Assembly: GCA_003963145.1 (NCBI GenBank)
Contig: RXJJ01000001.1
Coordinates: forward strand, 1 to 53,872
Direction of reading: 5' to 3'
DNA length: 53,872 nucleotides
Source of the DNA: Bradyrhizobiaceae bacterium
GTDB lineage: Bacteria > Pseudomonadota > Alphaproteobacteria > Rhizobiales > Xanthobacteraceae
The position numbers were made by a program, and so were the translations under genes. Positions 8,930 through 46,769 of the stretch are shown piece by piece. How positions within the stretch are numbered: the stretch's first letter is position 1; every line of letters starts with the position of its first letter. The notes under the pieces are model-generated. The model had not been told where the DNA came from, searched no databases, and saw only the letters and a program-made list of their open reading frames with translations.

Positions 8930-8952
8930 AAAGAATATCAAGGGAGGATGAC

Positions 8953-10278: not shown

Positions 10279-10320
10279 TTCACGCAATATCCTTGTTACG
10301 AAAGAATTCCGGGGCAACAC

Positions 10321-14544: not shown

Positions 14545-14555
14545 TCACTATATTT

Positions 14556-14590
14556 TGCCGGCACACCGCCAAATAGACGCTGTGCCGGCA
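14556..14590. other. Perfect 10-bp hairpin between binding protein and permease genes
   Basis: TGCCGGCACA and TGTGCCGGCA pair without mismatch around a 15-base loop. It lies in the 57-base gap after the binding-protein stop, in the direction of transcription (leftward). No T-run follows it on that strand, so an mRNA-stabilising or attenuating hairpin that favours the upstream gene is more likely than a full terminator. Confidence 0.7.
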
Positions 14591-14601
14591 TAGCAAGAGC
14601 G

Positions 14602-15754: not shown

Positions 15755-16816
15755 TCACGACTTTCGCAGCGAATAAATGCGGCCGCTTTCCTGAGAGTCT
15801 TCCCTTGCAGCAAGGGACGCGGCAGCATCGCGTGTGTTTTCATCTCCCTCGAAAATCGCCGGCTGATTGGCAGACCGGTCGATCGTCAGCTTGAAAACAT
15901 CAAAGCGATTGTAATAACCGGACAGATCGTGAAGCTGCTTGGGCTCGACGCATTCGGCCGTATCGATGTCTCCGTAGACAATGGCTTCTTCGTTTTGTGC
16001 CGGACCCGCAATAACAGCCCCGGTCGGCGAAACGATCATCGATATGCCGCGGGGACTGTCTTCCAGAATGCGCCGGGATTCAGCGTTGCCCGCGCTCAAT
16101 TGCTCTAGCATGGGGCCGTCCATGAACGACGCCGCGACCAGATTGAAAACCTTAGCCTCAAGCGCGTGCGCGTTTGCACGAATTCGGATGCCCTCCGCCA
16201 CGCTGTAAGACGACTCTTTGGGATCGTGAGCCGGCCACACGGGCGGATAGGATGACAGATGAATCTGTTCGCCCTGCGCAATCATGGCGAAGCGAGCCAG
16301 CGGGTTGAAATTTTCGCCACAAATCAGCATTCCGATCTTGCCGATATCCGTCTCAACGACTTTCAGCCCTGCTCCGTCGCCGTTCGCCCAAGCCATCTTT
16401 TCCCAGAAAGTCGGCACCAGTTTGCGGTGGTGATTGAGGATTGTTCCGTCGCTGCCGATCAGGATATTGGAATTCCAGATGCAGCCCACGCTGGCCTGCG
16501 AGCCCTCATTGATTCCGATCGAGACAATTGCGCCGACCTTGCGGGCGGTTGCGGCGATTTTATCGATCTCCGGACCCGGCACCATGATCGCCGACGCCGC
16601 GAGCTTGCGGAACCAGCCATGATTATGGATCGGTGCATTGAGCGCACTCCAAATCGGAAATGCCGAGATGAAGGTCTCCGAAAACACCATCAGTTCGGCG
16701 CCGTTTCCTGCAGCCTCCTCGATGAGTGCACAAACCTTGTCCACGGTCCGGGCTGTGTCGAGAAACACGGGCGCGACGTGCATCACAGCCGCCTTGAACT
16801 TCGGATATTTCTGCAT
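15755..16816 (-). CDS. Nitrilase (carbon-nitrogen hydrolase), CGEN subgroup
   Basis: Cytoplasmic nitrilase-superfamily hydrolase converting a nitrile to the acid and ammonia. The catalytic triad is readable: Glu47 (FSETF), Lys132 (HHRKLVPT) and Cys166 (LICGENFNPL). The family signature of true nitrilases is usually C-W-E after the strand; here it is C-G-E-N, shared with the paralogue at 18603, so both belong to a distinct subgroup. The length of 353 residues matches nitrilases rather than shorter amidases. It is the first gene of the operon carrying the two-permease importer and is divergent from a lysR gene. Confidence 0.88.
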   Translation of the reverse strand: MQKYPKFKAAVMHVAPVFLDTARTVDKVCALIEEAAGNGAELMVFSETFISAFPIWSALNAPIHNHGWFRKLAASAIMVPGPEIDKIAATARKVGAIVSIGINEGSQASVGCIWNSNILIGSDGTILNHHRKLVPTFWEKMAWANGDGAGLKVVETDIGKIGMLICGENFNPLARFAMIAQGEQIHLSSYPPVWPAHDPKESSYSVAEGIRIRANAHALEAKVFNLVAASFMDGPMLEQLSAGNAESRRILEDSPRGISMIVSPTGAVIAGPAQNEEAIVYGDIDTAECVEPKQLHDLSGYYNRFDVFKLTIDRSANQPAIFEGDENTRDAAASLAAREDSQESGRIYSLRKS

Positions 16817-16888
16817 GGGCTGACCTTCTGCTCTTTTCTCAAGCTTGAGTGAGGCAGCTCCACATGTAAAATATTAAAACCGTGGATT

Positions 16889-16911
16889 ATTCATAGGCCT
16901 ATCCTATGAAT
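16889..16911. promoter_or_regulatory. Inverted repeat, probable LysR operator
   Basis: ATTCATAGG and CCTATGAAT form a perfect 9-bp inverted repeat around CCTAT; the 10-base palindrome ATAGGCCTAT lies inside it. It sits in the gap between the divergent nitrilase and lysR genes, as expected for an autoregulatory LysR-type site. It overlaps an upstream ATG (16910), which supports the lysR start at 16928. Confidence 0.65.
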
Positions 16912-16927
16912 GGAGGGAGTTGGTGAA

Positions 16928-17836
16928 ATGACACTCAATTACACACTTCGTCACCTCAAATACTTCCTTGTTGCCGCCGACACCGGTTCGATTTCTCAAG
17001 CGGCACGCGATCTGAACATCTCGCAGCCGTCGATCTCGGCGGCGATCAATCATCTCGAACGCGAAATCGGCGTCGAGTTATTTCTGAGAAAACGGCCTCA
17101 GGGCGTGGCGCTTACGGCAGCAGGAAGAGACCTGATCCGAGCCACGCGGCAACTTCTCAATCACGCCAAGGAGTTCGAAGTTTCAGCCGGAAGCCTGGTG
17201 GACGCCTTGGCCGGGGAAATTCACATCGCGTGTTTCGTCAACATCGCCTCGACCTATCTGGCAGCGATCCTGCGGTCGTTTTATGCTGCCCATCCCAACG
17301 TGACGGTGCGCTGTCACATCGAGGACCAGAGCGAAATCCTGTCCGGAATTTCGAGCGGACGCTACGAATCTGCGATCACGTTCGATCTCGATCTGACGAA
17401 CGATTTCAATGTCGAAGTGGTGCGCGAGTTGATGCCACGCCTGGTGATTTCAAAACATCATCCGCTGGCGAAGCGTTCGCGCGCATCGCTGGAACAGGTC
17501 ATAGCGGAGCCGTTCATCGTTCTCGATCTGCCGCACAGCCGGAACTATTTTCTTTCGCTGTTTCACAATCAGGGACTGCGCCCCAACCGGATCATCCCCG
17601 TCTCATCGTTCGAAACCATTCGAAGCCTGGTCGGGAATGAACTCGGATATTCCCTGCTGAACATCGAGACGCGCACCGCAATGAACTACGATGGAACGGA
17701 GGTGAGGTACGTCAACCTGAGAGAAAAGCTGCGGCCTTTGAAAATCTGCATGGTGACTCTGAAAGGCTCTTCACCCCGGCGGGCGGTGACAGCCTTCAAC
17801 AAGCACGTGCAGACCTTTTTCAAGAAAATGAATTGA
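16928..17836 (+). CDS. LysR-family transcriptional regulator
   Basis: N-terminal winged helix-turn-helix (LKYFLVAADTGSISQAARDLNISQPSISAAI, about residues 7-60) followed by the LysR substrate-binding domain (GEIHIACFVNIASTYLAAIL). The start at ATG 16928 has GGGAG eight bases upstream; an earlier in-frame ATG at 16910 falls inside the inverted repeat. It is divergent from the nitrilase/importer operon and convergent with the isonitrile-hydratase-like gene, and most likely controls the nitrilase operon. Confidence 0.93.
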   Translation: MTLNYTLRHLKYFLVAADTGSISQAARDLNISQPSISAAINHLEREIGVELFLRKRPQGVALTAAGRDLIRATRQLLNHAKEFEVSAGSLVDALAGEIHIACFVNIASTYLAAILRSFYAAHPNVTVRCHIEDQSEILSGISSGRYESAITFDLDLTNDFNVEVVRELMPRLVISKHHPLAKRSRASLEQVIAEPFIVLDLPHSRNYFLSLFHNQGLRPNRIIPVSSFETIRSLVGNELGYSLLNIETRTAMNYDGTEVRYVNLREKLRPLKICMVTLKGSSPRRAVTAFNKHVQTFFKKMN

Positions 17837-17846
17837 ACACCTAATC

Positions 17847-18578
17847 TCAGGACACCGGGGCTCCTGGCAGCGGCACCGGAATGTTGTGTTTGCTGGCCCA
17901 TTCCATGGCGGTTTTCGTCCGCTTTTCAGTGATGTCATGGGCCGTCTGCTTGGCCGCCTGATACACCGCTGGCGGCGCGGACGCAGGCGTCCCACTATCG
18001 AACGGCGGTTCAGGCGCATACTCCATATAGAGCTGGATCGTCTTGGCCGCGTCTTCGCCCCGAAGAGCCGCAGCGACACGCAAAGCACCATCGATGCCGG
18101 CGGTAACACCGGCAGCCGACACCAGATTTCCGTCCATCACAACGCGTTCGTTCACGGGGATCGCACCGAAATAGGAAAGCAAATGAATGGCCGACCAGTG
18201 TGTCGTGGCGCGCTTTCCCTGTAAAAGACCGGCCGCGCCGCAGATCAGCGCGCCCGTGCAAACAGAAAAAATGAAACCGGCGCTCTGCGCCTGCGCGCGG
18301 ACCCACTGAAGGGTTTCCTCGTCGTTCATCACGACTTCCTGGCCGTAACCGCCGGGAATGTGCAGCACGTCGAGCGCAGGCGCTTCAGCCAGCGTGGCAT
18401 CCGCGCAAAGCTTGAGATTGCGGACGTCCCGGACGGGCTTCGTCGTCTTGCCGTAAATCTGATATGTCGCGTTCGGAAGGCGGGACAGAACCTCGAAGGG
18501 ACCCGTAAGATCGATCTGATCAAGTCCGGCGAACAACAGCGACCCAACCTGCAAGTGCTTGTCCGTGGGCACGATCAT
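17847..18578 (-). CDS. inhA: DJ-1/PfpI protein, isonitrile-hydratase-like
   Basis: DJ-1/PfpI-superfamily protein that resembles isonitrile hydratase (isonitrile to N-substituted formamide). The nucleophile elbow FSVCTGALI has Cys107, and the acidic partner Asp23 lies in IDLTGPFEVL; GGYGQE, KRATTHWSAI, AGVTAGIDGAL and YAPEPPFDSG match the layout of that enzyme as I know it. The 243 residues include a C-terminal tail of about 40. It follows the second nitrilase by 24 bases with a GGAGGAA ribosome-binding site, so the two are co-transcribed. A different small-molecule hydratase or a regulator-type DJ-1 cannot be excluded. Confidence 0.78.
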   Translation of the reverse strand: MIVPTDKHLQVGSLLFAGLDQIDLTGPFEVLSRLPNATYQIYGKTTKPVRDVRNLKLCADATLAEAPALDVLHIPGGYGQEVVMNDEETLQWVRAQAQSAGFIFSVCTGALICGAAGLLQGKRATTHWSAIHLLSYFGAIPVNERVVMDGNLVSAAGVTAGIDGALRVAAALRGEDAAKTIQLYMEYAPEPPFDSGTPASAPPAVYQAAKQTAHDITEKRTKTAMEWASKHNIPVPLPGAPVS

Positions 18579-18602
18579 GTCTTAATTCCTCCGCCTGCCG
18601 TG

Positions 18603-19685
18603 CTACTCGGCAGGAAATCCGATATCGGACAAATCCTCAACCTCGCGCAAATCTCCATGACCGTTGAGCGGACGCGAGGAACGATCTGCCGATTCACCCG
18701 CAATATGTTCCACAAAGTGAGCGGGTTCAAGCGCCGTACGGTTGACCGTGACGTCAAAAATATCAAATCTGTTGTAGTAGCCGACAACATCGTGAAATTG
18801 CTTCGGCTCGACGCCCTTGGCCGTATCGATGTCGGCGTAGAGAATACCCTCGTGTTCCGACAGCACGTCGCCGATGACATTGCAGGACGGATCCAGCACC
18901 AGCGAAATGCCGCGCGGCGAATTGTCGATGATATCGAGGCTCGCGCGGTTGGCGCTTCCAAGCGCCTCGCGCATCGCGGCATCGACGAATCCCGATGCAA
19001 CGATGTTGAAAACCTTCGCTTCGAAGGCATGCGCGCCGGCGCGGATTTCGATAGCGCGACGAAGGTCGTACGCGCCCTCTTCGGACGGTGGCCGCGTCGG
19101 CCAGATCGGCGGATAGGACGACACATGCACCTGCTCGCCCTGCGCCATAAGCGCATAGCGCGACAGCGGGTTGGTGTTCTCGCCGCAGATCAGCATGCCG
19201 AGCTTGCCGAGCCGGGTCGGCGTTACACGCAGGCCGCGCGCATCGCCATTGGCCCAGATCAGTTTTTCATAGAAAGTCGGAACCAGCTTCCGGTGGTGAT
19301 TGAGGATCGAGCCGTCATCGCCGATCAGGATGTTCGAATTCCAGATGCATCCCACGCTGGCATCTGTGCCCTCGGTGAATCCGAGCGAAACGAACACACC
19401 CTGCCGGCGCGCCGCCATGCGGATGGAGCGGATGGCGGGATCGGATATTTTCTGTGCCTCGGACACCAGCGTACGGAAAAAGGCGTGGTTGTAGATCGGA
19501 GCCTGCAACGCCGCCCAGATCGGGAAACCTGGCAGAAAGGACTCGGGAAACACCACGAGTTCGGCACCGCCGCGAGCCGCCTCGGCTATCAGGTCGCATG
19601 CTTTTTCCGCTGTCTTCTCGGCATCAAGAAAGACCGAAGAGGTGTGGCACGCAGCCGCTTTAAAGGCAGGATACTGGATCGTCAT
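18603..19685 (-). CDS. Nitrilase (carbon-nitrogen hydrolase), second paralogue
   Basis: Second nitrilase of the same CGEN subgroup: Glu48 (FPESF), Lys133 (HHRKLVPT) and Cys167 (LICGENTNPLSR). It shares long runs with the enzyme at 15755 (CIWNSNILIG, LVPTF.EK, YYNRFD) yet differs throughout, so these are diverged paralogues, not a recent copy. The length is 360 residues. It heads a two-gene unit with the isonitrile-hydratase-like protein and is divergent from Liv system 1. Confidence 0.88.
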   Translation of the reverse strand: MTIQYPAFKAAACHTSSVFLDAEKTAEKACDLIAEAARGGAELVVFPESFLPGFPIWAALQAPIYNHAFFRTLVSEAQKISDPAIRSIRMAARRQGVFVSLGFTEGTDASVGCIWNSNILIGDDGSILNHHRKLVPTFYEKLIWANGDARGLRVTPTRLGKLGMLICGENTNPLSRYALMAQGEQVHVSSYPPIWPTRPPSEEGAYDLRRAIEIRAGAHAFEAKVFNIVASGFVDAAMREALGSANRASLDIIDNSPRGISLVLDPSCNVIGDVLSEHEGILYADIDTAKGVEPKQFHDVVGYYNRFDIFDVTVNRTALEPAHFVEHIAGESADRSSRPLNGHGDLREVEDLSDIGFPAE

Positions 19686-19821
19686 GGAATGACCCCGGGT
19701 TGCAAAAAAGGCGGTAGCGCCCAGCGATTGGGCTAACCATCCATCACACTAGGTTTTTCGAGAAGCGCAGAATTACGCAAGGGCGTCTGCATCTGTGCCT
19801 TACTTTCGCTGACGCCAGAAT

Positions 19822-19839
19822 AGACAATATGCCTTGTCT
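19822..19839. promoter_or_regulatory. Inverted repeat in nitrilase/Liv divergent region
   Basis: AGACAA and TTGTCT pair perfectly around a 6-base spacer in the 249-base gap between the divergent nitrilase and livH genes. It could bind a regulator. I see no clear -35/-10 promoter elsewhere in the gap. Confidence 0.35.
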
Positions 19840-19934
19840 TGAAGCATGCCTTTTACGCAAAGCCTCTTGCATGTTTTCTTGCTGGAAATGCCGGCCAAGT
19901 GTTGCAAGCCTGCTCCCGACAGGGACGGAGGCAG

Positions 19935-20789
19935 ATGGATCTTTTTATCGCGTTGACGGTCAACGGCCTGGTGTGGGGGCTCATTGTTGCGCTGATCGCT
20001 CTGGGTTTATCGATCATCTTCGGATTGCTCGACATCATTAACGTCGCGCACGGCGATTTCTTCATGCTTGGAACAGTTCTCGCGCTGGTCATCACTGGCG
20101 TGACGGGCTTCTGGATCGCCATTGTCCTTGTTCCGCTGCTGGGGCTGGCGATCGGCCTCGTCATCGAACGCCTTGTCATCCGCCCGACCATCAATATGGC
20201 ATCGCTGACCATCGTGACCACGTTTGGCCTTTCGATGATCCTGCAGGAAACGGTGCGTGCCACCTATGGAGCGCAAGCGCACCGGATGGCGGCGCCGATC
20301 CAGGGTACGATCCCGCTTTTCGGAATCGAATACGACGTCTATCGGCTTTTTGCCGCTGCTTTTGCCGCTCTGTGCATCGTGGCATTTTTTCTGTTTCTCT
20401 CCCGTACCCGGCTCGGCACCTGGATACGAGCGGTCCGACAGGACCGTGAAACTGCCACGGCTCTCGGCATTCCGGTCACCCGTGTCTGCGCGTTCACATT
20501 CGGGCTCGGCACGGCCATGGCGCTATTAGGAGGCGCGATCGCTGCGCCGATCACTACGGTCGAATTCAGAACCGGCATCGACATTCTGCCCGTCAGTTTC
20601 ATGGCCGTTATCATCGGCGGACTTGGCAATCTCAAAGGCACGGTTGCAGCTGCGGTGCTTCTCGCCGTGCTGGAGGGCATGATCTCCAGCGTCGCCGATC
20701 CCACGCTGGCGCGCATCACATCCCTCGCCGTGATGTGCGCGGTTCTGCTGGTCAAGCCGAACGGCTTGTTCGCCGGAGCGATGCGATGA
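19935..20789 (+). CDS. livH: Liv system 1 permease LivH
   Basis: Inner-membrane permease of a branched-chain-amino-acid/amide-type (HAAT) importer. It shows the family segments LIVALIALGLSIIFGLLDIINVAHGDFF near the N-terminus, the RAVRQDRETATALGI loop that couples to the ATPase, and VIIGGLGNLKGTV. The length from ATG 19935 is 284 residues; GGAGG lies just upstream, and the frame is open 32 codons earlier without family similarity. It opens the rightward livHMGF-receptor operon. Confidence 0.93.
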   Translation: MDLFIALTVNGLVWGLIVALIALGLSIIFGLLDIINVAHGDFFMLGTVLALVITGVTGFWIAIVLVPLLGLAIGLVIERLVIRPTINMASLTIVTTFGLSMILQETVRATYGAQAHRMAAPIQGTIPLFGIEYDVYRLFAAAFAALCIVAFFLFLSRTRLGTWIRAVRQDRETATALGIPVTRVCAFTFGLGTAMALLGGAIAAPITTVEFRTGIDILPVSFMAVIIGGLGNLKGTVAAAVLLAVLEGMISSVADPTLARITSLAVMCAVLLVKPNGLFAGAMR

Positions 20790-21802
20790 CGGCCGGAGCC
20801 TGGAAATGGGCAGGAGTAGCCATCTTCGCCATAGCTATCGGCCTTGCGCCGTTCTGGATGAAATTTGTCGGAAGCCCGTTCTGGATCGACATCATCAGTG
20901 AAATTCTGATCTGGTCCCTGCTCGCGGCAAGCGTCAATCTTCTGCTCGGCTATGTCGGTCTGCTGTCCTTCGGACAGGCGCTTTATTTCGGCTTCGGCAT
21001 GTATGGCGTGGCCATCGGGATTAGCCACTTCGGTCTTGGGCTCTGGCCATCGCTTCTTCTTGGAATTGCCGCATCCGGGCTAATGGCGGCCTTTGCCGGC
21101 GCATTCGCCGTCCGGCTCTCGTGGCATTACTTTGCCATCATCACCGTGGTCTTCTCGCTGATTTTCTATTTCGCAGCCATGTCGGCCAAAGGCATCACCG
21201 GCGGCGATGACGGGCTTTCGTTCAGCACACCCGTGCTCTGGAAAGCCGCCGGTCTCACCCTCTCCAACAAGACGACACAGTTTTATTTTATCTATACCAT
21301 CTGCTTCGCCTGTTACGCGGCTGTCGCCCTGCTGGTAGCAAGTCCGCTCGGCATGCGGTTCAGAGCCGTCCGCGACAACGAAAAGCGCGCGGCACTGATC
21401 GGCATCAACGTCTATCTCACACGCTGGATCGCCTTCGTGATCGCCGGTCTGCTGGCCGGAGTTGGCGGCGCGCTATTTGCCCTGTTCGGACGATACGCAT
21501 CTGCATCCTACATGTTCTATCACGTCTCGGGGGAGGCCGTGGTGTGGGCGATCGTCGGCGGCCTCGGCACGTTGATGGGACCTCTGGTCGGCACCGCCCT
21601 GCTCATCATGTTCCGCGAAATCGTCTCGGGCTACTGGGAAAACTATCTGATCGCCGTCGGTGTTCTTGTCATCCTTGTAATCATGCTTGCGCCGCGCGGC
21701 ATTGTCGGCAGTTTGGATGAATTTCTGAACTGGACAAAGCCGGACCCGGACGCTCCGGAAGACGCCATTGAGGCTCTCGCTGAAATGGAGAAATCGCAAT
21801 GA
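20786..21802 (+). CDS. livM: Liv system 1 permease LivM
   Basis: Second membrane subunit of Liv system 1, 338 residues, with SVNLLLGYVGLLSFGQALYFG (LivM family), FRAVRDNEKRAALIGINV as the coupling loop, and VVWAIVGGLGTLMGPLVGT. The start overlaps the livH stop (ATGA at 20786). The C-terminal tail is acidic (DPDAPEDAIEALAEMEKS). Confidence 0.93.
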   Translation: MTAGAWKWAGVAIFAIAIGLAPFWMKFVGSPFWIDIISEILIWSLLAASVNLLLGYVGLLSFGQALYFGFGMYGVAIGISHFGLGLWPSLLLGIAASGLMAAFAGAFAVRLSWHYFAIITVVFSLIFYFAAMSAKGITGGDDGLSFSTPVLWKAAGLTLSNKTTQFYFIYTICFACYAAVALLVASPLGMRFRAVRDNEKRAALIGINVYLTRWIAFVIAGLLAGVGGALFALFGRYASASYMFYHVSGEAVVWAIVGGLGTLMGPLVGTALLIMFREIVSGYWENYLIAVGVLVILVIMLAPRGIVGSLDEFLNWTKPDPDAPEDAIEALAEMEKSQ

Positions 21803-22551
21803 CCGCGATCCTGTCAGTGCAGAATCTGACGAAACGCTTCGGCGGACTGACCGCGGTTGACAACATCAGCGTCGATTTTCCGCAAGGCATCCTCAATGCT
21901 GTAATCGGCCCAAATGGCGCGGGAAAAACGACTCTCTTCAATCTGATCACGGGAATGACCCCCGCAACCTCGGGGCGTGTCCTGTTCGACGGAGACGACA
22001 TCGTCGGCAAACCGACGCACGAGATCGTGTCGCGGGGATTGTCCCGCACGCTTCAGATCAAGAGCGTGTTCGGCGGCATGAGCGTAATGGACAATATCCG
22101 CATCGCCGTGTTCGCGCATCAGGGCATCTCGAATCCCCTGCGTTCGAGCCAGCGTTATCCATCCGTCACCCAACGTGTGCAGGAAATTCTCGAAGACACG
22201 GGGCTGCATCGTCTCGCTCACGCGAACGCCGGTGCGCTGTCATATGGCGACGTGGCGCTGCTCGAGATTGCGCTGGCGCTTGCAAACAAGCCCCGCCTAC
22301 TTTTGCTCGACGAACCGATCTGCGGCATGAGCCCGAGCGAAACCGAACGTACGGTGGAACATATCGTCCGGCTCGCCAAGACCACCAATATCATTCTGAT
22401 CGAGCACGATATGGAAGTCGTGTTTGCGATCTCCGGATTGATAACCGTGATGGCTCAGGGGCAGCTCTTGATGCAGGGCGCGCCGGACGACGTTTCAAAA
22501 GATGGCCGTGTTCAGGAAGTCTATCTTGGCGTTCCGGAGGATGCAGAATGA
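21799..22551 (+). CDS. livG: Liv system 1 ATPase LivG
   Basis: ATPase subunit: KRFGGLTAVDNISV, Walker A GPNGAGKTT, signature LSYGDVALLEIA, Walker B LLLLDEP, and the switch histidine in IEHDME. The length of 250 residues and the LSYG signature are typical of LivG. It overlaps livM and livF by four bases each. Confidence 0.93.
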   Translation: MTAILSVQNLTKRFGGLTAVDNISVDFPQGILNAVIGPNGAGKTTLFNLITGMTPATSGRVLFDGDDIVGKPTHEIVSRGLSRTLQIKSVFGGMSVMDNIRIAVFAHQGISNPLRSSQRYPSVTQRVQEILEDTGLHRLAHANAGALSYGDVALLEIALALANKPRLLLLDEPICGMSPSETERTVEHIVRLAKTTNIILIEHDMEVVFAISGLITVMAQGQLLMQGAPDDVSKDGRVQEVYLGVPEDAE

Positions 22552-23255
22552 CCGCGATGCTGGAGGTCTCCGGCCTGCGGGCGAGCATCGGGCGCGTCCC
22601 GATCCTGCGCGGAGTCAACCTTCGCGTTCAGCCGGGCGAAACGGTCGCGCTTCTCGGCCGTAACGGCGTCGGGAAAACCTCGACCTTACGTGCGATCCTG
22701 GGTCTTTTGCCTCGCTCGGACGGCTTTGTCCGCTTCGACGATACGGAGCTGGCGACAGTCCCCGCCTATCACGTCTCGCAACTTGGCATCGGATATGTCC
22801 CGCAGGGACGAGGCATCTTCGCTAATCTGACGGTGGAGGAAAATCTTTTCCTCGGTTTGCGGCGGGCGCCGGACAGCAGTCTCATCGATTATATCTACAC
22901 GCGGTTTCCGCGCCTGCACGAGCGGCGCGGCCAGAGCGCGGGCACATTATCCGGCGGCGAACAGCAGATTCTGGCCCTGGGACGCTGCCTGCTGCGCTCA
23001 CCGAAACTCATTCTGCTCGACGAGCCGACCGAAGGCATCATGCCGAAGCTCGTCAACGAAATTCGCCGCGAGATCGCAAACTTCGCTCAGAGCGGCGTCG
23101 CTGTTTTGCTTATCGAACAGAATTTCCGCACCGCGCTCAAGCTGGCGACGCGGATCTACCTCATGGAAAAAGGCGCCATCGTTCACGAAGCGACGCCCGA
23201 AAGTCTTTCCGCCGATCCATCCACCGTCCACCGCTATCTCGGCGTATCGCTGTGA
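22548..23255 (+). CDS. livF: Liv system 1 ATPase LivF
   Basis: Partner ATPase, 235 residues: Walker A GRNGVGKTS, IGYVPQGRGIFANLTVEENL (a LivF hallmark), signature LSGGEQQ and Walker B LILLDEPTEG, ending IEQNFRTALKLATR in the glutamine-containing switch typical of LivF. Coupled to livG by ATGA. Confidence 0.93.
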   Translation: MTAMLEVSGLRASIGRVPILRGVNLRVQPGETVALLGRNGVGKTSTLRAILGLLPRSDGFVRFDDTELATVPAYHVSQLGIGYVPQGRGIFANLTVEENLFLGLRRAPDSSLIDYIYTRFPRLHERRGQSAGTLSGGEQQILALGRCLLRSPKLILLDEPTEGIMPKLVNEIRREIANFAQSGVAVLLIEQNFRTALKLATRIYLMEKGAIVHEATPESLSADPSTVHRYLGVSL

Positions 23256-23277
23256 TGGCAAAGCAATGGAGTTTGAC

Positions 23278-24573
23278 ATGAAGACGAAGTTTCACATGAG
23301 GACACATGGCTTGAATCGCAGAAGTTTTCTTTCTCACGCCCTTGCGGGCGGTGTCGCCGCAGGAACGTCCTATCTCGGCCTTTCGGTGCGAGCCCATGCT
23401 GAAAGCGGTCCGATCATTCTCGGCAGCCATGTCGAATTGACCGGCGGCTTCTCATCCTGGGGCTACTGGCACGACAAGGCCGCGCAGACCGCCGTTAAGA
23501 TCGTCAACGAACAGGGTGGCATCGCAGGCCGTAAAGTTGAACTTGTAACAGAAGACACCGAATCCAACCCTGCCACTGGCACACGCAAACTGCGTTCGCT
23601 GATCGAGCGCAGCGGTGCGAATTTCGTTCTCGGCTCGGTCCACTCCGGCGTGATGCTTGCATCGATTCCGGTCGCGACCGAACTGAAAACTGTCTATTTC
23701 TCCTGCGGCGAAGCAACCGAGGCAACGGGCTCGAAAGGCACGCGCTATTCCTTTCGCACGGGCACGGACACTTACGGTCTCGCGGCCGCAGGCGCGCCGT
23801 GGGCTTTCGCAAACCTCGGCAAGAACTGGACGATGATCTCGCCGGACTATGCCTGGGGGCACAGCCATTACCAGGAACACAAGGCGATGATCGAAAAGCT
23901 CGGCGGCAAGGTCAACGACCCGATCTTTGTGCCGCTCGACGCCAAGGACATGGTGCCGTATCTCGCCAAGGTCCCGCAAGATACCGAGGTTCTATTCTCG
24001 GTGTTCTTCGGCGCGCAGTCGATCGCGTTCTACACCCAGGCCAAGTCGATGGGTCTGGAAAAGACGATGAAGATGTACTCGATCTGCGGCACCATGGAAG
24101 CCATCGCTCCGGTGGACCTGCAAGGCGCGGGTGAAGGGGTTTACATCGTTGAAAATTTCCCGCGCGTCCTCGAATACAAGGACGACGAATTCCACCGCGA
24201 GCACAACAAACGGATCGGGATTGACAATGTGGACGCCCGTGAGGTCGATTCCAAGCGCGTGATGGCCAAGAGCCACGCGTGGCAGTCATGGGAAAATGTG
24301 TTCGCTCTGAAGCAGGCGATCGAAACCTCTGGCTGGAAATCAAAGGACGACGACAAGGGGGTCATTGAGGCCCTTGAGGGCATGAGCCTGGCCAATTCGC
24401 TCGGCCATCCACAGGGCAACAAGATTCTACGCAAGGAAGACCATTCCGGCATCATCGACTGCTACATCTCGCATGTCGAAAACGGAAAATTCGTCGTGAA
24501 GAAAAAAGTCACGAAGGAAGAGCTGGTCAAATCGCTCCCGCCCCGCGTTGATTTCTCGACACAGGCGATCTGA
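23278..24573 (+). CDS. Liv system 1 substrate-binding protein, Tat-type signal
   Basis: Periplasmic binding protein of the LivJ/AmiC-like type 1 fold, serving Liv system 1. The N-terminus has a twin-arginine-like signal (NRRSFLSHALAGGVAAGTSY) with a likely cleavage at AHA. The mature chain begins PIILGSHVELTGGFSSWG and contains VLGSVHSGVMLA, TMISPDYAWGHS and VLFSVFFGAQSIAFY. I start at ATG 23278, with GGAG upstream; an ATG four codons earlier is possible. Liv-type receptors bind amides, urea and aromatic acids as well as amino acids; proximity to nitrilase and isonitrile hydratase suggests such a ligand. Confidence 0.9.
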   Translation: MKTKFHMRTHGLNRRSFLSHALAGGVAAGTSYLGLSVRAHAESGPIILGSHVELTGGFSSWGYWHDKAAQTAVKIVNEQGGIAGRKVELVTEDTESNPATGTRKLRSLIERSGANFVLGSVHSGVMLASIPVATELKTVYFSCGEATEATGSKGTRYSFRTGTDTYGLAAAGAPWAFANLGKNWTMISPDYAWGHSHYQEHKAMIEKLGGKVNDPIFVPLDAKDMVPYLAKVPQDTEVLFSVFFGAQSIAFYTQAKSMGLEKTMKMYSICGTMEAIAPVDLQGAGEGVYIVENFPRVLEYKDDEFHREHNKRIGIDNVDAREVDSKRVMAKSHAWQSWENVFALKQAIETSGWKSKDDDKGVIEALEGMSLANSLGHPQGNKILRKEDHSGIIDCYISHVENGKFVVKKKVTKEELVKSLPPRVDFSTQAI

Positions 24574-24585
24574 CCTTTCGGAAGA

Positions 24586-24611
24586 TGACGCGGCGCGCCT
24601 GCGCCGCGTCA
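24586..24611. terminator. Bidirectional hairpin between convergent genes
   Basis: TGACGCGGCGC and GCGCCGCGTCA pair perfectly (11 bp) around GCCT. It lies 13 bases after the receptor stop and includes the lysR stop codon on the other strand. A T-run is lacking, so it may act as a barrier or 3'-end hairpin in both directions. Confidence 0.7.
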
Positions 24612-25502
24612 CAGAACGTTAAGATAGTCGCGGTCCCGCACGAAGATATCGGTGAGATGGCGCGTGACATGACGCACGCGCGCCAGAAATTCGAGGTCCT
24701 CGTGAACGGACAGATAGATGTCCCGATAGACCGGTATTTCGTCGGCGAGAACAGGAATCAGTTTCGGATTCCGCTTGGCTGAGAACAGCGGCAGCAGACC
24801 AAGGCCCGTTCCGGCCGCTATCGCATTTTGCTGCGCGTGCATGCTGGACGAGCGAAACGCCACATTCACCGGATCGAGAATATCCAGAAGCCAGCGCACC
24901 GGCTGAATCGCGATAAGATCCTCGACATAATCAACGAACGTATGGGCAGCAAGCTCCGAACGGTCTTTCGGCAATCCGTGACGCGCGACATATTCGGGAC
25001 TGGCATAAAGCGCCAGCCGGAACGATCCGGCTTTCTTTATCATAAGGCGCTGTCCTGAGGGTGGAACGAAGCTGATGAAAATATCCGCTTCGCGTTTTGT
25101 CAGGCTGACAAGATGCCGCTCGGTGACCAGTTCGACCTGAATGCCCGGCTCCCGCGCGGAAAGCTCCGCAAAACGCTCGGCGAGAAAGAATGCGCCAATT
25201 CCTTCCATGGTGACGACGCGCACGCGTCCGGCCGCTGCCATTCCTTCCGCGCCCAGCGCCTGCGGGATATTGCCAACTTCCTGTTCGATGCGCTCGGCGA
25301 TTCCGAACAGACGATGCCCCTGTTCGGTGAGAACAAAGCCATCCGGCTTTCTGTCGAAAAGCTTGATCGATAGATCCTTCTCGAGCTCCGCGATCCGGCG
25401 GCTGACCGTGGTGTGATCGACGCGAAGGCGGCGCGCGGCCGGGGCAAGCCGCGTTTGCCGCGCCAGTTCGAGAAAAAAGGTCAAATCGTTCCAGTTGAAC
25501 AT
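24609..25502 (-). CDS. LysR-family transcriptional regulator
   Basis: Winged helix at the N-terminus (LTFFLELARQTRLAPAARRLRVDHTTVSRRI) and a LysR effector domain (GRVRVVTMEGIGAFFLAERF). The DHTTVSRRI recognition helix is typical of a large alphaproteobacterial LysR subgroup. The start at ATG 25502 matches the family. It follows the aldoxime dehydratase gene in the same direction across a 148-base gap, and so may regulate that operon. Confidence 0.92.
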   Translation of the reverse strand: MFNWNDLTFFLELARQTRLAPAARRLRVDHTTVSRRIAELEKDLSIKLFDRKPDGFVLTEQGHRLFGIAERIEQEVGNIPQALGAEGMAAAGRVRVVTMEGIGAFFLAERFAELSAREPGIQVELVTERHLVSLTKREADIFISFVPPSGQRLMIKKAGSFRLALYASPEYVARHGLPKDRSELAAHTFVDYVEDLIAIQPVRWLLDILDPVNVAFRSSSMHAQQNAIAAGTGLGLLPLFSAKRNPKLIPVLADEIPVYRDIYLSVHEDLEFLARVRHVTRHLTDIFVRDRDYLNVL

Positions 25503-25611
25503 CGATCTCCCAAAGTCTTCGGAGTGGGATCGCGTCAACCGGTATGCAAAACCCGCACTCAAAACCTGAATATGGTTTTAGATGACACCGGGCGGCTTCC
25601 GCAACATGAAG

Positions 25612-25632
25612 ACGGCGTCCGGCAGGCGCCGT
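25612..25632. terminator. Weak hairpin after the aldoxime dehydratase gene
   Basis: ACGGCG and CGCCGT pair around 9 bases, 19 bases past the dehydratase stop. Leftward it is followed by only a short CTTC, so termination is possible but weakly supported. The rest of the 148-base gap before lysR shows nothing clear. Confidence 0.35.
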
Positions 25633-25650
25633 TGGCCCCCTGACAGTCGG

Positions 25651-26700
25651 CTAATTCAGCCTTTCACCGTCAAAATACAGGGAAAGTCCCGTTCCCGGCG
25701 CGCAATTGACATACTCCGCATTTTGCCCCTTCGGCAGCACGAAAACCTCGTGCCAGGTCCGAAGCTGATTGGACTTGCCATATCTCTTGTAACGCGAGAT
25801 CGCGGCCTTGAAGATGGCGTCGTGAGACGCGTGGTTTTCCGCCCAGTTTTCGAGATGGCCCAGCGACAGGAAATATCCCAGCGCGTGAGTTTCCATGCGC
25901 GGCGCACCCGTGATGTCGCAGGTCTGCTGGAAGCGCAGGGACGCGCAACCGGTGACAGCGGCATTTTGGCGCAGGAAATCCATGCCGCGATCCAGAGGCG
26001 CGCGAAGCTGCTGCATATAATCGTCGGTCTGCTCCGTGTCGCATCGCTCCCAGGACGCTGCTGAGCGAATGACGGCGACATTCGAAGGCATGGTGATTTT
26101 CCAGCGCGCCCCTTTTGTGTCACGCACAGCCGGAGCGGGAAGTTCGGGATAGTCCGGAACAAGATCATCGACGCCGGCGATGGGAAGACGGTCGCGCATC
26201 GCGCCATAATAACCGCAGTACGGCGTCGGATAAACCGAGACATCCGGCGAGAGCATCATGGCAGCGGGATAATCCTGCCAGTAAATGGTCTCCTGCCGTT
26301 CGACCGGAACCATCATCGTTTCGCGGAAATATCCGGTGGCTTCAGATAGGCGGGCCTTGTCGTTCCACCACTCCGTCACCATCGGGTCATTATCCCACGC
26401 GGCGCGCTTTTGCAGATCGATCCAGTACATCGCGACGATGTGCGTATAAAGGCCGTTCTGATCCACAAGGGCTGCGTGATCGTGGACGGACGGCCCGTTC
26501 GGCAGACCAAGTACCTTTTCAATCCAGCCGAAGAACGCCGATCCGTAAACGGCAGCAGCGTCGCTTCCCTGCACGCCGTAAAACGTCACGCCGAATGCGG
26601 CGCAGTTGTTTGGAAAGCCGACCGACCAGCGCTGAACGATCGGCTCGAATCCCTTCGGCTTCCGCAGCGGATTTTTTCGTACATATTCGTAGGCCGGCAT
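25651..26700 (-). CDS. oxd: Aldoxime dehydratase (haem-containing)
   Basis: Haem enzyme of the phenylacetaldoxime dehydratase family (Oxd), which removes water from aldoximes to give nitriles. The 349 residues match known Oxd enzymes (about 350). Family segments seen: FGVTFYGVQG, HIVAMYWIDL, GYFRETMMVPVERQET, GYYGAMRDRLP (Arg169, Arg171), VAVIRSAASW (Ser213), and the C-terminal THALGYFLSLGHLENWAENH...WHEVFVLP. The haem-ligating and catalytic histidines should be among His290, His293 and His317; exact matching needs an alignment. The start at ATG 26700 has GTGAGGA upstream. It is the last enzyme gene of the Liv system 2 operon, and two nitrilases 6-11 kb away could take its product onward. Confidence 0.88.
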   Translation of the reverse strand: MPAYEYVRKNPLRKPKGFEPIVQRWSVGFPNNCAAFGVTFYGVQGSDAAAVYGSAFFGWIEKVLGLPNGPSVHDHAALVDQNGLYTHIVAMYWIDLQKRAAWDNDPMVTEWWNDKARLSEATGYFRETMMVPVERQETIYWQDYPAAMMLSPDVSVYPTPYCGYYGAMRDRLPIAGVDDLVPDYPELPAPAVRDTKGARWKITMPSNVAVIRSAASWERCDTEQTDDYMQQLRAPLDRGMDFLRQNAAVTGCASLRFQQTCDITGAPRMETHALGYFLSLGHLENWAENHASHDAIFKAAISRYKRYGKSNQLRTWHEVFVLPKGQNAEYVNCAPGTGLSLYFDGERLN

Positions 26701-26717: not shown

Positions 26718-27455
26718 TTAATGGACGCCGAAATAGGCTTCGTGCAGCTCGGCGTTCTGTTTCAATTCAACCGATGTCCCTTCGGCAACAACCTCGCCCT
26801 GAACGAGGACGTAGCCATAATCCGAAATGTTCAGGGTCTGGCGCACATTCTGCTCGACCAGCAGAACGGTGACGCCGGCCTCTTTCAACTTTCCGACGAT
26901 GTTGAAGACCTCGGAAACAAAAAGAGGCGACAGTCCCAAAGAGGGCTCGTCGAAAATGACGAAACCGGGATCCGTCATCAAACCACGCGCGATCGAAAGC
27001 ATCGAACGCTCTCCGCCCGACAGCGTGCCCGCAAGCTGGTTCTGGCGCTCCTTCAATCGCGGGAAGGTTTGGAACATCTTGTCCATCTGCTGGAGGACCT
27101 TGCGTTCGTCGCGCACAAGAAGACCGCCGACCCGCAGATTTTCGAGAACGGTCATTTTGGGGAAAACCTTGTTTCCCTCCGGGATCGTCGCGATACCGAG
27201 CGTGGCGATTTGATGGGTCGGAATATTCGCAATCGACTCGCCGCCGAAAAAGATCGAACCGGACCGCACACGGTTGAGACCCACAATGGCCCGGATCAGC
27301 GTGCTCTTTCCCGCGCCGTTGGCGCCGAGAATGCACGTCACCGTCCCGGGCTTGACCTCGATCGACACGGATTTGAGAACATCGGCGCGATCGTAGCCCG
27401 ACGTTATACCGATCACGGAAAGCTTTCGCGGGGCCTCGGCGCTCAAGACGCTCAT
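26718..27455 (-). CDS. livF: Liv system 2 ATPase LivF
   Basis: ATPase of the HAAT importer, 245 residues: Walker A GANGAGKST, IATIPEGNKVFPKMTVLENL, signature LSGGERS, Walker B FVIFDEPSLGLSP, and VEQNVRQTL in the switch region. The start overlaps the livG stop (ATGA). The aldoxime dehydratase gene follows after 17 bases. Confidence 0.93.
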   Translation of the reverse strand: MSVLSAEAPRKLSVIGITSGYDRADVLKSVSIEVKPGTVTCILGANGAGKSTLIRAIVGLNRVRSGSIFFGGESIANIPTHQIATLGIATIPEGNKVFPKMTVLENLRVGGLLVRDERKVLQQMDKMFQTFPRLKERQNQLAGTLSGGERSMLSIARGLMTDPGFVIFDEPSLGLSPLFVSEVFNIVGKLKEAGVTVLLVEQNVRQTLNISDYGYVLVQGEVVAEGTSVELKQNAELHEAYFGVH

Positions 27456-28234
27456 ACGCTTTCCCCCAGATAAGCCGTTTGCACGGTCGGGTCGGCGATC
27501 AGGTCATCGAACGTGCCCTCGAAGATTTTCCGGCCGAAATTCAGCACCACGCAAATTTCGGATACGCGTCGTACGACATCCATTTCGTGCTCGACAAGGA
27601 TGATGGCGAGATCCGGCATTTCGTCGCGGAACATCAGGATTTCGTCCATCAGACGCCGTGTTTCCTCATGGGTCATGCCGGCCGACGGCTCGTCGAGCAG
27701 AAGGAGCTTCGGCTCCCCGATCAGGGCACGGCATATTTCCACCCGCCGGCGGTCGATCATCGATAATGCGCCCACCGGTTCGAAAATCCGGCCCGCAAGC
27801 TGCGGGTTAAAGCGGTGGATCAGATCGCCGACACGGTCCTTGAGATCGGCATATTCGTTCCAGAATGTTTTTCTGAAAAGAAGATTATCGGTCAGCCCGA
27901 GATGCAGCTTGGAAAGAAGCCCAACCGCAACATTGTCGAACAGCGTCTGGTCGAGCATCAATCGCGCTCTCTGGAATGTGCGCGAGATGCCGGCCAGGCT
28001 GATACGCTGCGGCGATGCGGAGAAGACATCTTCGCCCTCGAACGTCACCACGCCCGCGCTTGGTTTGTAGAGACCCGTGACGACGTTGAAGAACGTGGTC
28101 TTGCCCGAACCGTTGGGTCCGACGAGACCTACGGTGCGCCCCTTCCCGATGCTGAAATCGACGCCGTCGAGGGCGGTCAATCCGCCGAAACGCATCGTCA
28201 GATTTTGGCAGGACAACAGTTCATGCGCCATGGC
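27452..28234 (-). CDS. livG: Liv system 2 ATPase LivG, unusual signature
   Basis: ATPase with Walker A GPNGSGKTT, FGGLTALDGVDF, Walker B LLLLDEPSAGM and switch VEHEMDVV. The signature reads LSMIDRRRVE where LivG proteins normally have LSYG(D/Q)QR. The start at ATG 28234 overlaps the livM stop by 14 bases and gives the family N-terminus MAHELLSCQNLTMRF; the open frame beyond it is inside livM. About 260 residues. Confidence 0.9.
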   Translation of the reverse strand, partial: AMAHELLSCQNLTMRFGGLTALDGVDFSIGKGRTVGLVGPNGSGKTTFFNVVTGLYKPSAGVVTFEGEDVFSASPQRISLAGISRTFQRARLMLDQTLFDNVAVGLLSKLHLGLTDNLLFRKTFWNEYADLKDRVGDLIHRFNPQLAGRIFEPVGALSMIDRRRVEICRALIGEPKLLLLDEPSAGMTHEETRRLMDEILMFRDEMPDLAIILVEHEMDVVRRVSEICVVLNFGRKIFEGTFDDLIADPTVQTAYLGESV

Positions 28235-29423
28235 GCTCTCCGCCCGGCATGGCCTCGTTCCGGAAAAGGCGAATTTGACGTCCCAGAAGACCCGAGGGAC
28301 GGAAGCGCAGGATCGCAATAACCAGCACTGCGAAGATCAGAAGACGGTATTCCTGAATAGCCTGAAGCTTCTCGGGGATGACGAGGATGATGATGGACGC
28401 AAGCACCGCGCCCCAGATGTTTCCCATTCCGCCCAGAATGATGATCGACAGCAAGATCAGGGAATCGCCCAAGCCTGCTCCGTTCGGATTCACAAATCCG
28501 TTCATCATTCCATAGAGCGCGCCGGCCAGCCCGATAATTGCATTGCCAAGGCAGAAGGCTGTGATTTTCCAGCGCGCGGGAGAAATGCCAAACACGGATG
28601 CCGAGGTTTCGTCGCAGCGCACAGCATCGAGCGCAACGCCGATCCACGATTTTTCAAGCCGCCGGCAAAGCGCAAACAGCAGCGCGAACAGAAAAATCGC
28701 CAGAAGAACGTAGGGCACATAAAATGAAACGGGCGTTCCCATGATGGATTTCACACGGCTGAAATCCACGCCGAAAATCCTGAAGCTCATGATCTTCATG
28801 CCTTGCGGACCGCCGAGGACGTCATTCACCTCAAGAAAAGTCCGCAGCAGAATGCCGAAGGAAATGGTGACAAGCGCCGCGTAATGACCCTTGGTCCGCA
28901 GCACTGGCAAAAGCAGCAGGCCGCCAAGGATCGCGGCGGCCGCGCCACCGGCCAGCAGCGCAACGACGGACGGCACTGACGCCGCTGAACAGATCGCTGC
29001 GGTGTAGGAGCCGACGACGAAAAACGCGGCCCCGGCAAAATTCGGCACTCCGGCAAACGCCATCTGGATGGTCAATCCGATCGCAGCCATTCCGTAGATC
29101 GCCACCGTGGCCGTCATCAGCAACGTGTAATGCTCGCGCCTGAAATACCAGACCAGAAGCAGACAACAGACCAGAGCGACGCAGTTCGCTAAAGATCCGT
29201 GGCGCTGCACCAGCTTAAAAATATCGCGCCCGATGGTGGTGTGCTCCGACGCGACGAAAGCCATGGTGAACAGGGCCAGGATGCCCGCGATCTGCCACTG
29301 GGATTCCGCATGCATCAGATAGCCGCCGCCGAGAAACAGCACGGCCACCAGCGGTATGACGAGGAAGCGTGACGGGCCCGCCACGACCCCTTCGACGCGC
29401 GTACTGACAGGCACGCTGGTCAT
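28221..29423 (-). CDS. livM: Liv system 2 permease LivM
   Basis: Membrane subunit of about 400 residues, long for LivM because about 90 residues with extra hydrophobic segments precede the usual start of the family (IYGMAAIGLTIQMAFAGVPNFAGAAFF). The coupling loop DAVRCDETSASVFGI and SIIILGGMGNIWGAVLAS are clear. The ATG at 29423 follows the livH stop by one base. Confidence 0.9.
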   Translation of the reverse strand: MTSVPVSTRVEGVVAGPSRFLVIPLVAVLFLGGGYLMHAESQWQIAGILALFTMAFVASEHTTIGRDIFKLVQRHGSLANCVALVCCLLLVWYFRREHYTLLMTATVAIYGMAAIGLTIQMAFAGVPNFAGAAFFVVGSYTAAICSAASVPSVVALLAGGAAAAILGGLLLLPVLRTKGHYAALVTISFGILLRTFLEVNDVLGGPQGMKIMSFRIFGVDFSRVKSIMGTPVSFYVPYVLLAIFLFALLFALCRRLEKSWIGVALDAVRCDETSASVFGISPARWKITAFCLGNAIIGLAGALYGMMNGFVNPNGAGLGDSLILLSIIILGGMGNIWGAVLASIIILVIPEKLQAIQEYRLLIFAVLVIAILRFRPSGLLGRQIRLFRNEAMPGGERHGA

Positions 29424-29424
29424 G

Positions 29425-30342
29425 TCAGACCCTCTCGCTGCGGCGTTCCGCCAGCAGTCCGGTTGGGAAAATACCGAGAAGGACGATGATGACCGCAAAC
29501 ACGATCACATCCTTGTATTCGCTCGAAAACGGCATCAGCACCACGACGAGCGTCTGAACGCCTGCGAACAAAAACCCCCCGATGATGGGGCCGACGAGGC
29601 TGCCGAGACCGCCGACAACGGCGGCCGCGAAACCGATCACGCCGAGCAGCACGCCCATGTTGAAATTGATTTCGCGATAGTAAAATCCCAGCATGCATCC
29701 CGCGAGCGTCGCAAGAACCGAGCCGATCGCGAATGTTCCGAGCACCGTTTTCTGGAAATTGATTCCCGACAGGCGCGCGGTCTCGCTGTCCTGCGCGACA
29801 GCGCGGATGGCCAGTCCGAGCTTTGTCTTGCTGATGACGAGATGCGTTCCGAACACCAGCACGAGACCGAACAGAAGGATGACAACACTATCAGCGCCGA
29901 CGCTGAACGATCCGAGACGATAAGTGACGTTCGAAAACAAGGAAGGAAACGGCTTCGGATTGCCGCCATTCGGCACGAAAAGACGAATGACCTCGTGCAT
30001 CACGGTGCCGGCCATCAGCGTGCCGAGCAAGACATTGACTGGCGGCGCAAAACGCAGCGGAAGAATGAGCGAGCGTGCCATTCCTACGCCGACAAGACAG
30101 CCCGCGGCAATCGTTGCGATCAGCCCCAGCAGCAAACCCAGGGCCGCCGGCACATGCAGCCACTCCGCGCCAACGAGAGCGCCCAGCATGGCGAAAGCGC
30201 CGACCGTCACCACATCGCCGTGAGAGAAATTGATGACGTCCAGCACGCCAAAGAACAGCGAGAAGCCGACAGCCACCATCGCATAGATGACGCCGAGCAT
30301 CAGGCCGTTGAACAGGTGCTGGGCGAGAATGCCGAAATCCAT
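29425..30342 (-). CDS. livH: Liv system 2 permease LivH
   Basis: Membrane subunit, 305 residues: MVAVGFSLFFGVLDVINFSHGDVVTVG at the N-terminus, AIRAVAQDSETARLSGI as the ATPase-contact loop, and VVGGLGSLVGPIIGG. It starts 159 bases after the binding-protein stop, with a strong hairpin between them. Confidence 0.93.
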   Translation of the reverse strand: MDFGILAQHLFNGLMLGVIYAMVAVGFSLFFGVLDVINFSHGDVVTVGAFAMLGALVGAEWLHVPAALGLLLGLIATIAAGCLVGVGMARSLILPLRFAPPVNVLLGTLMAGTVMHEVIRLFVPNGGNPKPFPSLFSNVTYRLGSFSVGADSVVILLFGLVLVFGTHLVISKTKLGLAIRAVAQDSETARLSGINFQKTVLGTFAIGSVLATLAGCMLGFYYREINFNMGVLLGVIGFAAAVVGGLGSLVGPIIGGFLFAGVQTLVVVLMPFSSEYKDVIVFAVIIVLLGIFPTGLLAERRSERV

Positions 30343-30457
30343 CTATCGACCGTCAGATGTTCCGATTGATCTGTGCGCCAAGCCGATACTCTGGCACCGC
30401 TCCTCGGGGTATCATGCACCCAGATATTAAAGAGAAGCGGCAGCCGGATCGGCGAGA

Positions 30458-30489
30458 CGGTGCCTGCGACACTATGTGTACAGGCACCG
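30458..30489. other. Perfect 9-bp hairpin between receptor and livH
   Basis: CGGTGCCTG and CAGGCACCG pair perfectly; inside the 14-base loop ACAC and GTGT pair again. It is 12 bases after the receptor stop in the direction of transcription, with no T-run, so it probably protects or separates the receptor mRNA rather than ending all transcription. Confidence 0.65.
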
Positions 30490-30501
30490 CGCCTCAACGT
30501 C

Positions 30502-31662: not shown

Positions 31663-31815
31663 GAGTAAGTCCTCCATGCGCAAACGTTAGCTCCGCATCG
31701 GCGCGTGGTGGATTGCAAATCTGCGCAAGAGAGCGTGCGAGAAAATACACAAGAGCAAGGAAACTGCACTCCAGTTAAGCTGAGAGTGTAACAAAATTAG
31801 GCAGACACCAAACGA

Positions 31816-33668: not shown

Positions 33669-33681
33669 GCGTCTCTCCCTT

Positions 33682-33705
33682 GGGCGCAACCAGCCGGCTG
33701 CGCCC
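33682..33705. other. Hairpin between receptor and monooxygenase genes
   Basis: GGGCGCA and TGCGCCC pair perfectly (7 bp) around 10 bases. It lies 41 bases past the receptor stop and just ahead of the monooxygenase ribosome-binding site in the leftward direction. It may tune expression between the transport and enzyme genes. Confidence 0.5.
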
Positions 33706-33746
33706 CTGTTTTAACGGCTTGCTTGAATGCGACCCGAAACGTCAGG

Positions 33747-34976: not shown

Positions 34977-34979
34977 GAA

Positions 34980-39961: not shown

Positions 39962-39974
39962 TTAGAAAAGCTTG

Positions 39975-41845: not shown

Positions 41846-41848
41846 TGC

Positions 41849-46765: not shown

Positions 46766-46769
46766 CGGC

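Follow-up and report, generated by a model that had tools for sequence, protein, structure and literature searches.

Based on the gathering of genes for carbon–nitrogen triple-bond chemistry at one locus of a Bradyrhizobiaceae bacterium (assembly GCA_003963145.1), we asked whether a predicted aldoxime dehydratase (Oxd), two nitrilases (Nit1 and Nit2) and an isonitrile/isocyanide hydratase-like (ICH-like) protein form one pathway or several systems that have come to lie side by side. The stretch analyzed, hereafter the window, comprises the first 53,872 bases of contig RXJJ01000001.1 (309,684 bases; genome 3.86 Mb). Our analysis points to an island where three otherwise separate modules merged, rather than to one pathway, a view that we hold with moderate confidence. 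A preliminary description of the sequence had reported all four enzymes within positions 15755..26700, and each of them was recovered there. The open reading frame (ORF) list and the profile scans extend the island to 11085–31683 (~20.6 kb); the three importers that had been described are all present, two of them (11085–15711 and 26718–31683) outside the original 11-kb span. The description had also given each enzyme its own importer and regulator, which is correct in part: three importers and two LysR regulators serve the four enzymes, with neither an importer nor a regulator dedicated to the ICH-like gene. Several gene starts in the island were re-picked by eye and then checked.

Enzyme families and module layout

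Module A consists of oxd, LIV-type importer 2 and the regulator LysR2, together with a Nit2-type nitrilase. Oxd (25651–26700, minus strand) matches the haem dehydratase profile PF13816 with 240.5 bits against a cut-off of 25, covering profile positions 3–310 of 310, and its residues R171, S213, H293 and H317 align with R178, S219, H299 and H320 of OxdA, where H299 is presumably the proximal histidine. The other three OxdA residues are named as catalytic in PMC5391958. Judged by its domain and catalytic residues, Oxd belongs to the haem aldoxime dehydratase family; it shares 34% identity with OxdB and 33% with OxdA across 323 residues and fails the OxdA-type equivalog model NF050090 (196.5 against 600 bits). 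The gene lies 17 bp behind livF_2 of importer 2 (26718..31683, minus strand, by ORF order LivF_2, LivG_2, LivM_2, LivH_2 and LivK_2, the last at 30502–31683), and the nearest solved chains of LivK_2 are amino-acid-binding and leucine-binding proteins. LysR2 (24609–25562, minus strand) carries HTH_1 and LysR_substrate domains.

Nit2 (18603–19685, minus strand) is shared between modules A and B, and Nit1 (15755–16816, minus strand) belongs to module C. Both match the CN-hydrolase profile PF00795 and hold a Glu-Lys-Cys triad (E47/K132/C166 in Nit1, E48/K133/C167 in Nit2) with the CGEN motif that is common to all 66 nitrilases collected. Among solved chains, nitrilases, NIT4 and cyanide dihydratases come closest to them, and on these sequence features both are branch-1 nitrilases. 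An identity as amidase-type CN hydrolases, raised as an alternative in the preliminary description, was rejected at the sequence level, as solved amidases lie far behind the nitrilases among the nearest chains.

In module B, Nit2 and the ICH-like gene stand divergent from LIV-type importer 1 (19935..24573, plus strand), which by ORF order comprises LivH_1 (probable start 19935), LivM_1, LivG_1, LivF_1 and LivK_1 (23266–24573). LivK_1 is a Peripla_BP_6 protein for which the best NCBIfam model is the urea-binding UrtA, far below its cut-off; its best solved chains are branched-chain amino-acid-binding or extracellular ligand-binding proteins, with urea- and amide-binding (AmiC) chains weaker.

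Module C joins Nit1 to a taurine-type importer and to LysR1 (16910–17836, plus strand; HTH_1 and LysR_substrate), which is divergent from nit1. The importer genes, all on the minus strand, encode the ATPase TauB_1 (11085–12038), the permease TauC_1 (11975–12802), the ATPase TauB_2 (12803 to ~13657; SaoA, taurine and nitrate ATPase models match below cut-off), the permease TauC_2 (13654–14544) and an SsuA/NMT1-like binding protein (14602 to ~15711; NMT1_2 and SsuA-family matches). Between nit1 and lysR1 lies the palindrome CATAGG-N5-CCTATG (16892..16908), a probable LysR1 operator. This is its only exact copy in the genome, and LysR1 therefore probably acts at nit1 only; copies with one mismatch occur at 9 places, about as frequently as a reversed control.

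Recurrence of the modules in other genomes

The neighbourhoods of related nitrilases were compared in a survey of 66 rows, 64 of them outside the window's two and one of these 64 from the window's own genome. Loci L082 and L088 (copies of G145 and G082) and rows below 42% identity or 280 residues were excluded, and flanks reached ~10 kb, less at contig ends. As searches for Oxd, nitrilase or LIV-1 supplied many of the loci, the shares given for these genes carry an upward bias; ICH played no part in selecting the nitrilase loci.

Module A recurs in relatives. Oxd homologs of 46–68% identity were found in 18 named loci, and 16 of these hold a nitrilase of the same family, the exceptions being L091 and L085, where the flank ends at 1.8 kb on one side. 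Orthologues of importer 2 (LIV-2) flank Oxd in 11 of the 18, from Bradyrhizobium, Xanthobacter, Aquabacter, Azorhizobium, Methylorubrum, Methylobacterium and two metagenome-assembled genomes, and LysR2 orthologues (69–81%) adjoin Oxd or the nitrilase. In the Oxd tree, a supported branch splits 25 rows including the window's from OxdA, OxdB and the other Oxds of the family, and LIV-2, according to labels assigned by hand, accompanies 18 of the 25. Any Oxd at E 1e-20 is present in 23 of the 149 genomes of the family sample, the window's genome counted. Among plasmids, 34 records carry an Oxd, and the nine above 60% identity are from Bradyrhizobium; two of these nine loci were opened, both with the order livKHMGF_2-oxd and with the nitrilase directly behind in one and ~14 kb off in the other. 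The window's own genome holds a second aldoxime locus (C26:16000-54000; L030, L031), comprising an Oxd 34% identical to that of the window, a nitrilase at 36361–37269, LIV-type transporter genes, a flavin reductase and a further CN-hydrolase. C26 also encodes, at 18882–19853, a nitrilase 54% identical to Nit1.

The pairing of a nitrilase with importer 1 (LIV-1) was likewise met elsewhere. Of the 64 other nitrilase rows, 11 have LIV-1 at a distance of up to 10.5 kb, and Oxd is absent from all 11; when LIV-1 relatives were sought directly, a nitrilase stood beside LIV-1 in 7 of the 13 opened (14 genomes found). Nit2 relatives at 82–84% identity occur in both Oxd-linked and LIV-1-linked loci, and the nitrilase tree mixes the two kinds of members, with six changes needed per label; we read this as a sign that nitrilases may have been swapped between aldoxime and nitrile modules. 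Little was gained from class and phylum searches: counting the window's genome, 3 of 385 and 9 of 398 genomes hold a Nit2 relative at E 1e-80.

Module C was met in one other genome, L170, of another family. There the gene order is kept, with both permease–ATPase pairs, the SsuA-like protein (80%), Nit1 (75%) and LysR1 (69%), and four further neighbour genes of the window are shared. The CATAGG-N5-CCTATG palindrome also lies between nit1 and lysR1 in L170, at equal spacing. A taurine-type importer that neighbours Nit1 by chance had been considered, since G015, G131 and G035 carry the importer without a nitrilase, and this was overturned by L170. The window's own genome has a second copy of the importer, with no nitrilase in the stretch opened.

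Because Oxd with nitrilase and LIV-2, and nitrilase with LIV-1, recur in other genomes, and Nit1 with the taurine-type importer and LysR1 in L170, the gene set is not a product of chance. Based on these comparisons it is real, recurring and somewhat unusual, with a suggestive link between nitrilase and isonitrile hydratase. In its enzymology the island is, by its gene content, a variant of the known aldoxime–nitrile cluster. Described Oxd clusters include either nitrile hydratase or a nitrilase together with an AraC regulator (PMC8955678), and an Oxd-amidase-nitrile hydratase cluster is known from Pantoea vagans (PMC3137637). As in the clusters of Bacillus sp. OxB-1 and Bradyrhizobium sp. LTSPM299, Oxd is encoded with a nitrilase, here with two within 11 kb, and the same two-step chemistry would be expected (PMC8955678). 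Unlike them, the island has two LysR-type regulators in place of AraC (NitR), an ABC importer for each module, a second nitrilase and an ICH-like gene, and its Oxd falls in another subfamily than OxdA and OxdB. The word 'transporter' is absent from the main texts, as accessed, of PMC8955678 and PMC11568032 on Oxd clusters, and in the open-licence literature we found no paper joining Oxd, nitrilase, gene cluster and ABC transporter.

Several observations weigh against a coherent island. In the 64 other nitrilase rows, Oxd never occurs with LIV-1, ICH or the taurine-type importer. Module A is therefore joined to B or C in none of these relatives, which lend no support to one pathway spanning the island. 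No convincing motif or operator shared by modules A and B was found. A candidate LysR2 operator, TTGCAA-N6-TTGCAA, is exact in L137, has two mismatches in L184 and at least three in the nit2-livH_1 and livK_2 upstream regions of the window; the pattern is over-represented across the whole window (34 against 21.5 expected) and does not, therefore, single out these regions. Six of the 13 LIV-1 relatives have no full-length nitrilase alongside, some of them on short contigs, and in G015, G131 and G035 no nitrilase accompanies the taurine-type importer in the stretches opened. Six other searched genomes of the window's genus contain no Oxd. The idea of one broader detoxification or feeding island, as first proposed, is supported in part, by modules that recur; their coordination is unsupported, with no convincing motif common to A and B and a LysR1 operator present as a single exact copy.

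The hydratase-like gene behind Nit2

The ICH-like gene (17847–18578, minus strand), a member of the DJ-1/PfpI superfamily, follows nit2 after 24 bp. Its best solved relatives are the isonitrile/isocyanide hydratase InhA (E 1.3e-62), and next comes a ThiJ/PfpI chain of unnamed function (6.7e-41), with named DJ-1 chains at 9e-14 or worse. A DJ-1 chaperone, the other alternative named in the preliminary description, was rejected at the sequence level on the basis of this nearest relative. Like InhA of Pseudomonas, to which it is ~50% identical over some 220 residues, the protein keeps Asp17, Cys101 and Thr102 of PfICH (here D23, C107 and T108), and in isocyanide hydratase Cys101 is the nucleophile and Asp17 the general acid (PMC10971408). 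Unlike InhA, it has Ala156 and Val158 in place of Gly150 and Ile152 of the studied enzyme, and its gene stands behind a nitrilase. The two replacements speak against a hydratase; the G150A mutant of the studied enzyme is slower, ~sixfold, yet active (PMC10971408), and alanine at this position hence lowers the claim and does not end it.

An ICH gene lies near the nitrilase in five of the 64 other rows, at 0.1 kb in L142 and L163, 1.1 kb in L167 and 2.1 kb in L164 and L165. These five rows fall in four families, L164 and L165 being of one genus, and the window's layout, with ICH behind Nit2 and LivHMGFK_1 divergent, is repeated in L142 and L163. Given how densely ICH genes occur in the family (120 matches, 5 Mb assumed per genome), ~0.05 such neighbours (0.052) would be expected. 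The chance is 3.5e-7 if four pairings are taken as independent; if lineages only are counted (the L142/L163/L167 clade and the L164/L165 genus), there are two pairing events and the chance is ~0.001. In the ICH tree, L142, L163 and L167, from three families, form one supported clade of proteins 58–61% identical to PfICH. The window's protein and four others compared are 50–53% identical to PfICH, and the window falls with L164 and L165 in another supported clade of 16 members. The nitrilase-linked label requires three changes on this tree, at least two of them by starred branches, so the nitrilase–ICH pairing arose or was lost more than once. The nitrilase-neighbouring proteins on the tree represent two or more lineages of hydratase, and the window's copy seems to have been recruited independently into the same position.

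The strongest competing explanation makes the ICH-like gene a chance neighbour that has a different DJ-1-type role, whether as a stress protein or as a stray from a family that pairs with DJ-1-AraC regulators, so that only aldoxime and nitrile chemistry would be meant. We give it a considerable chance, somewhat short of even. Its closest ICH relatives have no nitrilase, and at the 29 other ICH loci of the family that were opened (of ~119 matches) no nitrilase was found within 1.5 kb, a further point against a coherent island; most ICH genes do without a nitrilase, and we read the pattern as some nitrilases having acquired an ICH. A second DJ-1-like gene stands beside 10 of the 13 other members of the window's clade, all without a nitrilase, and is a DJ-1-AraC protein in all three loci scanned (L045, L046 and L164), including both of those that have no nitrilase. 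The alanine at the Gly150 position, a change that slows the studied enzyme, and the two lineages of pairing outside the window also favour an incidental neighbour. Such a gene would not be expected to show operon spacing behind nit2, nor would L142 and L163 be expected to repeat the layout with a hydratase of another lineage, nor five neighbours to occur where one-twentieth was expected. With a nitrilase–ICH neighbourhood that recurs, isonitrile hydration by the ICH-like protein is plausible.

A bolder extension, which we put forward tentatively and consider doubtful, is that nitrilase and isonitrile hydratase form a recurrent functional pair with its own LIV-type importer, serving a polar natural product that arrives in nitrile and isonitrile forms alike, or else as an aldoxime yielding both. 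The hydratase would have been recruited more than once, and the window would fuse the pair with the aldoxime module to handle one metabolite family at one locus. If true, this pair would give isonitrile hydratase a physiological setting, and it would hint at a class of plant or microbial metabolites taken up and used by these bacteria. In any case, the locus offers a testable genomic setting for the enzyme. Both isonitrile hydratase and nitrilase are named in the introduction of PMC5391958, and no paper on isocyanide hydratase with nitrilase was found in the open-licence literature. A looser case of pairing is present on plasmid pBB1 of Cupriavidus necator N-1 (L207, 645000-680000), where three nitrilase-family genes, three ICH-like genes, one DJ-1-AraC gene and a PLP enzyme lie within ~26 kb amid insertion elements, with a nearest nitrilase–ICH distance of at least 7 kb.

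Proposed function, competing substrates and neighbouring genes

Given the three modules, we consider it fairly probable that the locus is an inducible uptake-and-hydrolysis island for aldoximes and nitriles, built from units that are separate in relatives. In module A, LIV importer 2 would bring in a polar aldoxime or its precursor, the haem Oxd would dehydrate it to the nitrile, and Nit2 would hydrolyse this nitrile to carboxylate and ammonia, which may serve as a nitrogen source. In module B, LIV importer 1 would import a second substrate, of which the nitrile would go to Nit2 and an isonitrile form to the ICH-like enzyme, giving the N-formamide in vivo. The taurine-type importer, Nit1 and LysR1 of module C would act as a third nitrile module, regulated separately. 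Small aldoximes and nitriles cross membranes, and dedicated importers would therefore argue for polar substrates, which may be amino-acid-like, amide-like or glycosylated. Of the chemistry first proposed for the locus, the conversion of aldoxime to nitrile to acid plus ammonia remains a natural reading with its recurring Oxd–nitrilase–importer units, and the conversion of isonitrile to formamide is plausible.

The Oxd subfamily is ~one third identical to two characterised enzymes and is usually encoded with its own ABC importer, which suggests polar natural substrates over small membrane-permeant ones. The locus would supply four new enzymes, as predicted, for making or breaking C–N triple bonds. 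In the open-licence literature, no title or abstract start on modules like A–C was found, which is not proof of their absence in print.

It is also conceivable, though unlikely, that the nitrilases handle cyanide or amino nitriles such as beta-cyanoalanine and that Oxd is a side branch. Cyanide dihydratases and NIT4 are among their solved relatives, amino acids are the usual cargo of LIV-type importers, and 109 plasmid records, many from legume rhizobia, carry Nit2 relatives; in three of the plasmid stretches opened, the nitrilase has amino-acid or nitronate monooxygenase genes nearby. Nit6803 (sll0784) of the Nit1C type is the nearest NCBIfam nitrilase model, and for Nit1 also the nearest solved chain. 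Unlike Nit6803, however, Nit1 (225.6 bits) and Nit2 (195.7 bits) stay far below the TIGR04048 cut-off of 502.6, and the window genes scanned include none of what we take to be the Nit1C neighbour set; identity with the Nit1C cluster was rejected on these two grounds. In addition, 20 of the 64 other nitrilase rows have an Oxd no more than 10.5 kb away, with the caveat that Oxd was the basis for choosing many loci. Still less likely is the synthesis of auxin (indole-3-acetic acid) from indole-3-acetaldoxime via indole-3-acetonitrile: indole-3-acetaldoxime is a substrate of characterised Oxds, and this route has been considered for plant-associated bacteria (PMC8955678), but two LIV-type importers and one taurine-type importer would fit the uptake of outside compounds better than hormone synthesis, and at 34% and 33% identity to the characterised enzymes compared, specificity is not transferable to this Oxd.

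Among the plasmid stretches, Nit2-type nitrilases lie near nitronate monooxygenase genes in L208 (a Methylobacterium nodulans plasmid) and L211 (a Bradyrhizobium sp. 4 plasmid) and near homoserine genes in L210 (a Rhizobium johnstonii plasmid). These neighbours may point to substrates among the metabolites of legumes.

Directly upstream of module A, on the same strand, 31816–38827 (minus) encodes an NtaA/DmoA-family FMN monooxygenase, a flavin reductase, an AhpD-like gene and a third LIV-type importer. No close orthologue of the monooxygenase was seen beside Oxd; relatives of 33–34% identity occur close to the Oxd loci in G051 and Bradyrhizobium sp. 4. Beyond it, a Guanidine-I riboswitch (39973–40082, plus strand) and a Guanidine-II (mini-ykkC) riboswitch (40289–40337, plus strand) stand in tandem before genes for UAAP1, UAAP2 and a urea-carboxylase-family protein (40362–45391). 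Guanidine-II beside Guanidine-I was seen in the window only, and at none of the 19 other Guanidine-I loci of the family that were scanned (20 in total, 1.5 kb flanks). A type III glutamate-ammonia ligase-like gene (45395–46855, minus strand; TIGR03105, above cut-off) adjoins the urea-carboxylase genes, and nitrogen-scavenging genes extend beyond the island. On the other side, 5245–11067 (plus strand) holds in a row a biotin carboxylase, a carboxyltransferase, a BKACE enzyme of the 3-oxoadipate:acetyl-CoA acetyltransferase type, an MFS carrier and an SDR, which probably constitute a separate organic-acid pathway.

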